From assembly GCF_007829955.1 (NCBI RefSeq), contig NZ_VIWX01000002.1, forward strand, positions 1 through 64,000: a stretch of DNA of 64,000 nucleotides, read 5' to 3'. Shown piece after piece: positions 32,466 to 43,305 of this stretch. This stretch comes from Saccharopolyspora dendranthemae. GTDB lineage: Bacteria > Actinomycetota > Actinomycetes > Mycobacteriales > Pseudonocardiaceae. The position numbers were made by a program, and so were the translations under genes. The notes under the pieces are model-generated. The model was not told the origin of the DNA. It worked only from the letters and a program-made list of their open reading frames with translations, and made no database searches. Position 1 is the stretch's first letter. Each line of letters opens with the position of its first letter.

Positions 32466-32481
32466 CTTGACATGTGTCTAG
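32466..32481. promoter_or_regulatory. Second-class palindrome upstream of aldehyde dehydrogenase operon
   Basis: CTTGACATGTGTCTAG. Identical at 14 of 16 positions to CTGGACATGTGTCCAG at 43290-43305; not a KstR motif. It lies 19-34 bp before the ATG at 32500, where a promoter or repressor site would sit. Confidence 0.65.
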
Positions 32482-32499
32482 AAACCGGATGTGGTGCCG

Positions 32500-33963
32500 A
32501 TGAGCGTCTGGACAACCAAGGCGTCGAACCTGCTGATCGACGGTGAATCGGTCCCCGGATCAGGGGGGAGGTTCGAAACCGCCAATCCCGCCACGGAAGA
32601 GGTCCTGGGCACGGCGGCCAACGCCACCGCCGCCGACATGGACAGCGCGATCGCGGCGGCCCGGCGCGCCTTCGACGAAACCGACTGGTCCCGCGACCTC
32701 GACCTGCGCGTGCGCTGCCTGAAGCAGCTGAGCCGGGCGCTGCAGGATCACGCCGAGGAGCTGCGGGAGCTGACCATCGCCGAGGTCGGTGCGCCTCGCT
32801 TCCTCACCCACGGCGCCCAGCTGGACGCGCCGATCGCCGACGTGGCCCACTTCGCCCAGCTCGCAGCGGGTTACGAGTGGACCCGCGATCTCGGGGTCGC
32901 CGAGCCCATGGGGATGCCCAGCAGGCGCTGGACCCGGCGCGAAGCGGTGGGCGTCGTCGGGGCGATCACGCCGTGGAACTTCCCGCACCAGATCAACCTC
33001 GCCAAGCTCGGTCCCGCGCTGGCGGCGGGCAACACCGTCGTCCTCAAGCCCGCGCCCGACACGCCGTGGTGCGCCGCAGCGGTCGGCGAGATCCTGCTGG
33101 CCGAGACCGACATCCCGCCGGGCGTGGTCAACATCGTCACCTCCGACGACCACGCGCTCGGGGCGCAGCTGTCCTCCGACGAGCGGGTGGACCTGGTCTC
33201 GTTCACCGGATCCACCGACACCGGGCGCGCCGTGATGGCCTCCGGTGCTCCCTCGATCAAGCGGACGTTCCTGGAGCTGGGTGGGAAATCGGCGTTCGTC
33301 GTCCTCGACGACGCCGACCTCGGCGCGGCCTGCGGGCTCGCGGCCTTCACCGTGTGCACCCACGCGGGCCAGGGCTGCGCGCTGACCACCCGGTTGCTGG
33401 TGCCCCGCGCCCGCTACGACGAAGCCGTGCAGCTGACGGCGAAGGCGCTCAGCGGCATCCCCGCCGGTGACCCCGACGATCCCGGAACCGTGTGCGGTCC
33501 GGTCATCTCCGCGCGCCAGCGCGACCGGGTGGAGAGCTACCTGGCGCTCGCCGAGGAAGAAGGCGGGAAGTTCGCCTGCGGCGGCGCTCGGGCCGAGCGC
33601 GATCGCGGGTTCTTCGTCGAACCCACCCTGATCACCGGGCTGACCAACGACTCGCGCGTGGCGCGCGAGGAGATCTTCGGGCCGGTGCTGGTGATCCTTC
33701 CGCACGACGGTGATGACGACGCCGTGCGCATCGCCAACGACTCGCCCTACGGGCTCTCGGGTGCGGTGCACGGCCAGGACCTGGAGCGGGCGCGGGCGGT
33801 CGCCGCGCGCATCCGCACCGGGACGATCGGCATCAACGGCGGGGTCTGGTACGGCGCCGACGCCCCGTTCGGCGGGTACAAGCAGTCGGGCATCGGCCGG
33901 GAGATGGGACTGGCCGGCTTCGAGGAATACCTGGAGACCAAGCTCATCGCCGAACCGGCGTAG
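32500..33963 (+). CDS. Aldehyde dehydrogenase (AldA/Rv0768-like)
   Basis: 487 aa NAD(P)-dependent aldehyde dehydrogenase. Glu259 in FLELGGKS and Cys293 in AGQGCALTT are the catalytic pair; TPWNFPH and FTGSTDTGR frame the cofactor site. First of five tightly packed genes. ALDH-SDR-hydroxyacid dehydrogenase-CMD is the order of Rv0768-Rv0771, which in M. tuberculosis adjoins the cyp123-cyp51 operon. It presumably oxidises an aldehyde made by one of the P450s (inference). ATG 32500 preferred to GTG 32491; neither has a good Shine-Dalgarno. Confidence 0.87.
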   Translation: MSVWTTKASNLLIDGESVPGSGGRFETANPATEEVLGTAANATAADMDSAIAAARRAFDETDWSRDLDLRVRCLKQLSRALQDHAEELRELTIAEVGAPRFLTHGAQLDAPIADVAHFAQLAAGYEWTRDLGVAEPMGMPSRRWTRREAVGVVGAITPWNFPHQINLAKLGPALAAGNTVVLKPAPDTPWCAAAVGEILLAETDIPPGVVNIVTSDDHALGAQLSSDERVDLVSFTGSTDTGRAVMASGAPSIKRTFLELGGKSAFVVLDDADLGAACGLAAFTVCTHAGQGCALTTRLLVPRARYDEAVQLTAKALSGIPAGDPDDPGTVCGPVISARQRDRVESYLALAEEEGGKFACGGARAERDRGFFVEPTLITGLTNDSRVAREEIFGPVLVILPHDGDDDAVRIANDSPYGLSGAVHGQDLERARAVAARIRTGTIGINGGVWYGADAPFGGYKQSGIGREMGLAGFEEYLETKLIAEPA

Positions 33964-33980
33964 CGAGGCGGGAGGACGCA

Positions 33981-41325: not shown

Positions 41326-42101
41326 TTCTCCTCCAGCGGGGCTTCGGGCTCGACCTCGATCAAGCTCAGGTGCACGCCGCGCGGCGCCGAGACCACGTGG
41401 TGCACGGCGTCGGCGATGTCGGAGGCGCGCAGGAAGTACGGGTGCCTGGCCAGGCCCCACTTCACCCAGTCGTTGAGCACTGCCTCGGTGGTCTTGTCGT
41501 CCCACTGCATGCCCATCGAGGTGAAGGTGGGGCCGGGGCGCACGATGCTGGCGCGCACGCCGGTGCCCTCCAGCTCCATGCGCATCGTGCGCGCCATCGC
41601 CTCCAGCCCCGCCTTGGCGGGCACGTACGCGCCCATCCGGGGCCGGGGCTTGGGAACCACGTCGGAACCGATCAGCACGACGTCACCGCGCCGCCGCCGC
41701 ACCATGCCGGGCACGATGCGGGAGACGAGCCGGTGCGCGCCGCCGAGGTGCACGTCCAGCTGGTCGCCGAAGCGGGCGTCGTCCATCTCGTGCACCAGGT
41801 CGGCGTCGAGGTCGCCGGCGCCGTAGACGAGGATCTCGATGTCGCCGAGCTCTTCGGTGGTCCTGGCGACGAACTCGGTCACCGAGCTCTCGTCGGTGAC
41901 GTCCAGCTGGACCGCGATGGCCTCGCCGCCGTCAGCCCGAATCTTGGCGGCCAGCTCCTCGCACTTGTCGGCGCGGCGGGCGCCGAGGGCCACCGGATGT
42001 CCCGCGGCGGCCAGGGCCTGGGCGGTGGCCGCGCCGATCCCGGCCGACGCGCCGGCTATCGCGGTCGGGCGGCGGACCGGGTTCGGTTCGAATCTGGGCA
42101 T
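41322..42101 (-). CDS. Short-chain dehydrogenase/reductase (Rv0765c-like)
   Basis: 259 aa SDR: AIAGASAGIGAATAQALAAAG cofactor motif, LGARRADKCEELA (Arg after strand 2, favouring NADP), catalytic IGSDVVPKPRP ... YVPAK, then VRPGPTFTSM. Located between the two P450 genes, 2 bp after cyp123 and overlapping cyp51, so it likely oxidises or reduces a hydroxysterol made by one of them. Same place as Rv0765c. Confidence 0.87.
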   Translation of the reverse strand: MPRFEPNPVRRPTAIAGASAGIGAATAQALAAAGHPVALGARRADKCEELAAKIRADGGEAIAVQLDVTDESSVTEFVARTTEELGDIEILVYGAGDLDADLVHEMDDARFGDQLDVHLGGAHRLVSRIVPGMVRRRRGDVVLIGSDVVPKPRPRMGAYVPAKAGLEAMARTMRMELEGTGVRASIVRPGPTFTSMGMQWDDKTTEAVLNDWVKWGLARHPYFLRASDIADAVHHVVSAPRGVHLSLIEVEPEAPLEEK

Positions 42102-42103
42102 GG

Positions 42104-43297
42104 CTACCTGCTTTCCACGCGAACGGGCAGGGTCGCGAAGCCGCGCACGTTGCTGGAGTGCACGCGCTGCGCGCGGTCGGTGTCGACGTCGTAGGACTTG
42201 ACCAGCTCGACGAACTCGGTGAGCGCGATCCGCGCCTCCAGGCGCGCCAGGTGGGCGCCGAGGCAGAAGTGGGTCCCGCCGCCGAAGCTGACGATCGGGG
42301 TCTCGGTGCGGCGGTCGATGTCGTAGTCGTCGGCGGCGTCGAAGGCGCGCGGGTCGCGGTTGGCCGATCCGACCAGCAGCAGCACGCGGGCACCTGCGGG
42401 AATCGTGGTGCCGTGCAGCGCGATGTCCTCGGTCGCGGTGCGCGCGACCATCTGGCTGGAGGTGTCGTAGCGCAGGGTCTCCTCGATCCAGTCGGTCACC
42501 CGGGCCGGATCGGTGAAGGGCTTGGCCTGCTCCCCGGGATTGCGGTGCGCCCAGTAGGCGGCGTTGGCCAGCAGCTTGGTGGTGGTCTCGTTGCCCGCGA
42601 CGACCATCAGGAACAGGAACGCGATGATCTCGTCGTCGCTGAGCCGGTCGCCGTCGATCTCGGCGTCCATCAGCGCGGACGTGAGGTCGTCGGTGCGCTT
42701 CTTGCGGCGTTCGGCGAGCATGTCGGCGTAGTAGGCCACCAGGTTCAGCGAGGCCTCCATCGCCGCCTGCGGGACGTCGAAGACGCCCTCGTCGCGGTGC
42801 ATCACGGTGTCGGCGAGCTCCCGCAGCCGGTCGCGGTCGGCCTCCGGGACGCCCATGAGCTCCGAGATCACGTCCATCGGGAACTTGCCGGCGAAGTCCG
42901 CCACGAAGTCGAACTCGCCGGACTCCAGCGCCGGGTGCAGGTGGTGCCGGGCGAGTTCGAGGATGCGCGGCTGCAGGTCGCGCACCCTGCGCGGGGTGAA
43001 CCCCCGGGAGACCAGCGAGCGGAGCCGGTTGTGGCGGGGGTCGTCGAGCGCGAGGAACGACATCGTCTTGTGCGCGTAGGGGCCCCAGGCGGCCGGGTCC
43101 AGCGAGACACCGTTGGCGTTGGACAGCCGGGTGTTGTCCCGGAACAGCGCGGCGACGTCCGAATGCCTCGACAGCGCCCAGAAGTCGAGCTCGTCGTTGC
43201 GGTAGACCGGCGCCTCGTCGCGCAGCCGCGCGTAGGTCGGGTACGGGTCGGTGTGCACGGCGTAGTCGTACGGGCTGAACACAACACCACTGGACAT
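42104..43297 (-). CDS. cyp123: Cytochrome P450 CYP123-like
   Basis: 397 aa P450: FSPYDYAVHTDPYPTYARLR, DDPRHNRLRSLVSRGFTPRR, I-helix VVAGNETTTKLLANA, ExxR in EETLRYDTSSQ, heme loop FGGGTHFCLG with Cys345, and VHSSNVRGFATLPV at the end. Best likeness is CYP123 (Rv0766c), whose substrate is unknown. First gene of the cyp51 operon. The chosen ATG 43297 lies inside a 16-bp palindrome (43290-43305) and has no Shine-Dalgarno, pointing to a leaderless mRNA whose start is covered by the operator. Confidence 0.9.
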   Translation of the reverse strand: MSSGVVFSPYDYAVHTDPYPTYARLRDEAPVYRNDELDFWALSRHSDVAALFRDNTRLSNANGVSLDPAAWGPYAHKTMSFLALDDPRHNRLRSLVSRGFTPRRVRDLQPRILELARHHLHPALESGEFDFVADFAGKFPMDVISELMGVPEADRDRLRELADTVMHRDEGVFDVPQAAMEASLNLVAYYADMLAERRKKRTDDLTSALMDAEIDGDRLSDDEIIAFLFLMVVAGNETTTKLLANAAYWAHRNPGEQAKPFTDPARVTDWIEETLRYDTSSQMVARTATEDIALHGTTIPAGARVLLLVGSANRDPRAFDAADDYDIDRRTETPIVSFGGGTHFCLGAHLARLEARIALTEFVELVKSYDVDTDRAQRVHSSNVRGFATLPVRVESR

Positions 43298-43305
43298 GTG
43301 TCCAG
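43290..43305. promoter_or_regulatory. Second-class palindrome at the cyp123-cyp51 operon start
   Basis: CTGGACATGTGTCCAG: perfect 7-bp arms around TG, overlapping the cyp123 start codon (43295-43297). It recurs with two changes upstream of the aldehyde dehydrogenase operon (32466-32481). Form and size fit a TetR-family operator. Confidence 0.7.

Follow-up and report, generated by a model that had tools for sequence, protein, structure and literature searches.

Results and Discussion

Two palindromes at the heads of two convergent operons

The window analysed here, which is the whole 64,000-nucleotide stretch at the start of contig NZ_VIWX01000002.1 of Saccharopolyspora dendranthemae, contains two operons with a similar 16-bp palindrome at the start of each. 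One operon carries the gene of CYP51, a sterol 14alpha-demethylase, behind cyp123, and the other is led by an aldehyde dehydrogenase gene of the Rv0768 type. The operons converge in the window, where the first runs on the − strand from 43297 down to 39223 and the second occupies 32491–35940 on the + strand. The genes, the palindromes, which are predicted to be operators, and the adjoining hexamers are as follows.

43306–43311, − strand: TANNNT hexamer TAGCGT directly adjoining operator 1, predicted −10 element of cyp123
43290–43305, − strand: operator 1 (predicted), CTGGACACATGTCCAG on the gene strand, 25.3 bits, the best-scoring place of the window
42104–43297, − strand: cyp123 (60–69% identity to the other seven alignment rows; gene order)
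41322–42101, − strand: SDR oxidoreductase
39970–41325, − strand: CYP51, sterol 14alpha-demethylase (790.7 bits to M. tuberculosis CYP51 1e9x, residues 3–448)
39776–39970, − strand: ferredoxin (PF13459)
39223–39774, − strand: Rv0762c-type protein, weakly SnoaL-like (below the Pfam cut-off)
32462–32467, + strand: TANNNT hexamer TAGTCT, predicted −10 element of the aldehyde dehydrogenase operon, with two bases shared with operator 2 (offset −12 class)
32466–32481, + strand: operator 2 (predicted), CTTGACATGTGTCTAG, 5′ of the aldehyde dehydrogenase gene, 15.1 bits, the second-best place of the window
32491–33963, + strand: aldehyde dehydrogenase, Rv0768 type (TIGR04284, 878.9 bits, cut-off 775)
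33981–34733, + strand: SDR oxidoreductase (NF005853, 442.7 bits)
34733–35584, + strand: 3-hydroxyisobutyrate-dehydrogenase-like protein (below curated cut-offs)
35587–35940, + strand: carboxymuconolactone-decarboxylase-family (CMD) protein (PF02627)

The name cyp123 is given from synteny with Rv0766c, and the similarity of the CYP51 protein to that of M. tuberculosis extends over the whole chain. The start codon of cyp123 (ATG at 43297–43295 on the − strand) lies in frame inside operator 1. Operator 2 ends 18 bp upstream of the ATG of the aldehyde dehydrogenase gene at 32500, for which a GTG at 32491 is an alternative start. The two operators are 10.8 kb apart, are identical at 14 of 16 positions, and both read GACATGTGTC. 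The initial annotation, made from the letters of the DNA, had described this pair and its overlap with the cyp123 start, which the sequence confirmed. It had also noticed no further copy, and CTKGACATGTGTCYAG was found exactly twice in the 6.41 Mb genome.

Conservation of the sites in relatives

Taken alone, the operator pair is weak and unremarkable by the statistics of the window. Of the 16-mers in the window, 719 are near-palindromic (12 or more of 16 positions), and 142 pairs of these, the operator pair included, agree at 14 or more positions, compared with a mean of 56.65 such pairs in 60 resampled windows. The finding rests on conservation in relatives and not on the pair itself.

In 13 loci (L055–L067), which have the gene order Rv0762c–Rv0771 and were taken as Mycobacterium, tetR and the aldehyde dehydrogenase gene are separated by a gap with two sites, one for each divergent start; in one of these loci (L066) one of the two sites is off by one core base. 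A weight matrix was built from 23 training sites of these loci (L055–L067), where the window was excluded and three duplicates were dropped (one of L063 and both of L065). With this matrix from relatives only, the operators of the window rank first and second in the 64 kb with 25.3 and 15.1 bits, whereas the third place reaches 9.7 bits and the best match of the reversed matrix 7.7 bits.

The loci of named relatives were the best 80 of 560, those nearest to the query. A site of at least 12 bits was found at the promoter of the cyp123 operon, led by either tetR or cyp123, in 78 of these 80 loci. For the aldehyde dehydrogenase promoter the count is 66 of 68, after exclusion of 12 loci without a usable promoter of this gene; the controls gave 0/148 with the reversed matrix and 5/740 with shuffles. 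In 32 of the 68 loci both promoters fall into a single intergenic gap and the same site entered both counts, and therefore the 36 loci with promoters more than 400 bp apart were evaluated separately. Both sites are present in 34 of them, which cover seven named genera and one member of the Streptosporangiaceae; the failures are the lead site of L134 and the aldehyde dehydrogenase site of L130. The lead-promoter sites extend over 13 named genera, including Nocardia, Rhodococcus, Mycobacterium, Actinomadura, and Nonomuraea. In 1.59 Mb of relatives, 222 sites of at least 11 bits were obtained against 9 in the control, of which 191 lie near the starts of genes mapped to the window by homology, 31 lie elsewhere, and 0 lie inside a mapped gene. 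The initial annotation had made its proposal depend on such conservation upstream of either operon, and the conservation in named relatives supports its claim that one operator distinct from that of KstR unites the separated operons, with CYP51 in the regulon.

In the first scan of stretches upstream of cyp123, few genomes showed a site, because tetR leads the operon in Mycobacterium-type genomes. The cyp123 of the window is 89–93% identical to that of four named Saccharopolyspora species, and that of Saccharopolyspora sp. HNM0983 has 72% identity and a different gene order.

Position of the sites relative to the promoter elements

The NTG of the operator is preceded, at exactly 14 or 12 bases, by a TANNNT hexamer in 26/26 cyp123, 24/25 aldehyde dehydrogenase, and 30/31 tetR unique promoters, where the failures belong to L070 and L122. 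At the tetR promoters the NTG is an in-frame open start codon in 46 of 48 sites (40 of 42 once duplicates are removed), which suggests leaderless transcripts. At the cyp123 promoters it is the in-frame start in 8 of 47 sites, including those of the window and of the four named Saccharopolyspora species. The start of cyp123 in the operator, ATGTCCAG, is read as Met-Ser-Ser, and it seems that the operator with its start codon was passed to cyp123 when tetR moved behind kstR.

The candidate repressor

The tetR gene of the window is displaced from the operons and lies behind kstR.

45292–45861, − strand: TetR-family protein of the Rv0767c type, predicted repressor, with a KstR-like predicted fold and without an operator of its own
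45868–45873, − strand: TAGGCT, 6 bp 5′ of the ATG of the displaced tetR and its predicted −10 element, without an operator
46016–46642, − strand: KstR, the cholesterol regulator, encoded immediately upstream of the displaced tetR (NF033703, 303.3 bits, cut-off 280)

The protein at 45292 matches the Rv0767c-type model with 172.9 bits (E 1.9e-50), compared with 65.3 bits for the next-best protein of its genome. It contains the helix-turn-helix domain TetR_N (PF00440, 51.5 bits, cut-off 24), and its structure model (pLDDT 87.2) has the all-helical TetR fold, with KstR chains ranking first in the fold comparison. It is not a KstR itself, as its score against NF033703 is 56.7 bits against a curated cut-off of 280. 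In the tree it falls inside the Rv0767c group and apart from KstR, where several paralogue rows stand on very long branches and are of unsure placement. Two regulators had been suggested in the initial annotation, and the evidence singles out 45292; the other, at 36903, is absent from the 26 matches of the Rv0767c-type model, lies outside the group in the tree, and was rejected.

The protein at 36903–37490 has AcuR as its best NCBIfam match (39.5 bits, cut-off 247), and its gene adjoins an alpha/beta hydrolase gene. A second KstR-like protein of the same genome (C4:19385–19822, locus L201) groups with KstR in the tree. In two Mycobacterium-type genomes, a perfect operator is found 5′ of a GT4 glycosyltransferase gene and a second operator about 3.8 kb further on, beside a second Rv0767c-type TetR with P450 genes behind it (L102:3625–3640 and 7466–7481; L096:3633–3648 and 7461–7476).

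Relation to known regulons

Bragin et al. (2019; PMC6593523) described a palindromic "motif X" beside 14 operons of a phytosterol-grown Mycobacterium. Expression of 12 of these operons rose more than 3-fold, and the targets include genes for P450, aldehyde dehydrogenase, and SDR proteins. The motif was assigned to G155_05115, the Rv0767c orthologue of Mycobacterium sp. VKM Ac-1817D, and a copy near the start codon of this gene was given as a sign of autoregulation, not as a requirement (PMC6593523). For the binding sites of Rv0767c, an enrichment of GAC/GTC is given in PMC10312376. The window has a TetR of the same type, the same type of target set, and the conserved palindrome at both promoters. 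The site is likely of the same type as motif X, judging from the regulator, the place, the targets, and the GAC/GTC enrichment. In contrast to that system, tetR in Saccharopolyspora has been moved behind kstR and the start of cyp123 lies within the operator; the palindrome that is usual at the regulator's own promoter was not found in the 3.5 kb locus of tetR.

The gene set is also that of Rv0762c–Rv0771 of M. tuberculosis, whose genes were reported to change together (PMC10470581). In M. tuberculosis the two operons flank Rv0767c as neighbours, whereas in the window they converge, with 10.8 kb between their operators. The KstR (Rv3574) regulon differs in its palindrome, and the protein at 45292 is far below the KstR cut-off and apart from KstR in the tree.

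The motif–regulator pair is thus already known in part, as it was proposed for a Mycobacterium (PMC6593523). The reach beyond mycobacteria, the tracking of CYP51, the geometry of the promoters, and a displaced regulator that lacks its usual operator are new here. The main text of PMC6593523 contains 0 occurrences of "cyp51" or "cyp123", and no explicit link between CYP51 and an Rv0767c operator was found in the literature searched, with supplements and most subscription journals outside the search.

Proposed mechanism and alternatives

From the sites, their conservation, their fixed place relative to the TANNNT hexamer, and their presence in genomes together with the TetR and cyp123, we infer binding and repression: both palindromes are very probably operators of the KstR-like TetR at 45292–45861, which would keep the CYP51/CYP123 and aldehyde dehydrogenase operons shut until a predicted sterol-derived ligand removes it. 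With the TetR on both operators, both operons would be off, and the ligand would release the repressor. If the hexamer serves as the −10 element, the operator would cover the transcription start, and a TetR dimer over the start point next to the −10 element would block the formation of the open complex. In most of the relatives examined in which tetR leads the operon, tetR starts inside its own operator. The Saccharopolyspora tetR, in its place behind kstR, has no operator, and it is cyp123 whose start lies inside one; therefore the self-regulation of tetR was probably lost.

Several observations weigh against this assignment. Operator 2 is imperfect, with 15.1 bits and two core changes. The genome-wide frequency check that had been proposed with the pair gave no excess in the own genome, neither for CTKGACATGTGTCYAG with up to 3 mismatches (37 matches, 85 in the reversed control) nor for the core GGACANNTGTCC (2 places, 1 in the control); the absent excess fits a very small regulon in this genome. 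The 80 loci include many close kin (37 Nocardia and 13 Rhodococcus). The 3.5 kb locus of tetR has no site of at least 9 bits, whereas the other TetR matches have an adjacent site in 31 of 32 cases, the exception being the second TetR of genome G137, which is also without one. That another regulator reads the sites, be it TetR 36903, KstR, or an Rv0576-like ArsR protein, with TetR 45292 a mere bystander in the cluster, would agree with the lack of an operator at this tetR, with the proximity of kstR and KstR-like sites to the operators, and with the listing of Rv0576 as a putative regulator of Rv0762c–Rv0771 in PMC10470581, which also counts against TetR 45292. This alternative is nevertheless unlikely, as TetR 36903 is outside the Rv0767c-type matches and the tree group, the palindrome lacks the core of KstR sites, and site, TetR, and cyp123 occur together in 19 of 24 genomes, where only 22 TetR candidates were scored per genome, a further point of caution; the five genomes without the TetR have no site of at least 9 bits in the stretches scanned. 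Counted genome-wide over 150 genomes, the 12-base core did not separate genomes with the TetR from those without it. A chance resemblance of two palindromes would agree with the 142 pairs in the window and the missing genome-wide excess, but it is contradicted by the orthologous promoters, which keep both sites in fixed geometry, and is extremely improbable.

A second place within one mismatch of CTGGACANNTGTCCAG exists in the own genome (C1:1337782–1337797, 16.8 bits); it lacks the TANNNT hexamer and, as a candidate for a further operator, is probably due to chance.

Joint control of both operons by KstR and the TetR, which the initial annotation had considered, was examined by a scan with TAGAACNNGTTCTA, which we take to be the KstR consensus. 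The palindromes do not contain the core AACNNGTT of KstR sites, and the KstR-like sites are separate from them.

32356–32369, no strand assigned: KstR-like site TAGAACATGTTCTA, 0 mismatches to the consensus, near the divergent thioesterase gene start at 32327
43411–43424, no strand assigned: KstR-like site GAGAACGTGTTCTA, 1 mismatch to the consensus, near the divergent SDR gene start at 43468

Measured to the divergent thioesterase and SDR starts, the distances of these two sites are 29 and 44 bp; to the predicted −10 elements they are about 91 and 100 bp. Because of this placement the sites may serve the divergent neighbours alone. Weaker sites with 3 mismatches at 32412 and 43356, which precede the −10 elements by about 35 and 45 bp, leave room for joint control. 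KstR-like sites with up to 2 mismatches occur at either promoter in Saccharopolyspora (4/4), Nocardia (22/37), and Aldersonia (2/2), where the reversed control gave only 3/80 and 3/68; however, they are missing in Rhodococcus (0/13), Actinomadura (0/8), Nonomuraea (0/5), and the one locus each of Mycobacterium and Mycobacteroides. Bragin et al. found both motifs together at two promoters (PMC6593523). Joint control was not established by these results and is possible rather than probable. Since KstR-like sites are lacking in several genera, the TetR would be the common regulator and KstR at most a lineage-specific addition. A further KstR-like site lies between kstR and the displaced tetR (45990–46003), and of the four Saccharopolyspora relatives L114, L116, and L124 have a similar one and L115 has none.

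CYP51 and the wider regulon

Among the stand-alone CYP51 genes of Nocardia, all eight with readable upstream sequence have a site of their own (14.8–17.0 bits). This count was obtained from 11 genes flagged as leading, where L115 and L148, which directly follow or overlap an SDR gene, and L177, which has no upstream sequence, were set aside. The stand-alone CYP51 of genome G060 has its own site as well. A partial reading of the 31 sites elsewhere (19 loci) gave further targets in Nocardia: a site lies 5′ of CYP125 in L162, of a Mce4-type protein (PF11887, 222.6 bits) in L135, and of an S-(hydroxymethyl)mycothiol dehydrogenase (TIGR03451, 684.5 bits, cut-off 512.9) in L166. In Nocardia bovistercoris, an operator (L190:19735–19750) stands 5′ of a ferredoxin-NAD(P)-reductase-like fusion protein.

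A tentative and still rather doubtful extension is that actinobacteria have an ancient sterol repressor besides KstR, which accompanies CYP51 wherever the CYP51 gene moves and governs a regulon of methyl-sterol demethylation and catabolism; its operators would be joined to the transcription start and in many cases to the start codon as well. CYP51 would remove the methyl groups of sterols jointly with CYP123 and the Rv0768-type aldehyde dehydrogenase, and the one-carbon units set free would be handled by the mycothiol-dependent formaldehyde dehydrogenase, which has the operator in some Nocardia. The physiological relevance of mycobacterial CYP51 was called unclear in a 2019 review (PMC6469627). 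A regulator–operator pair that accompanies CYP51 through rearrangements would assign this enzyme to a catabolic regulon that responds to sterols and that, in some Nocardia, also includes CYP125, a Mce4-type protein, and a formaldehyde dehydrogenase, and the unsettled role of bacterial CYP51 becomes testable through the shared operator and its repressor.

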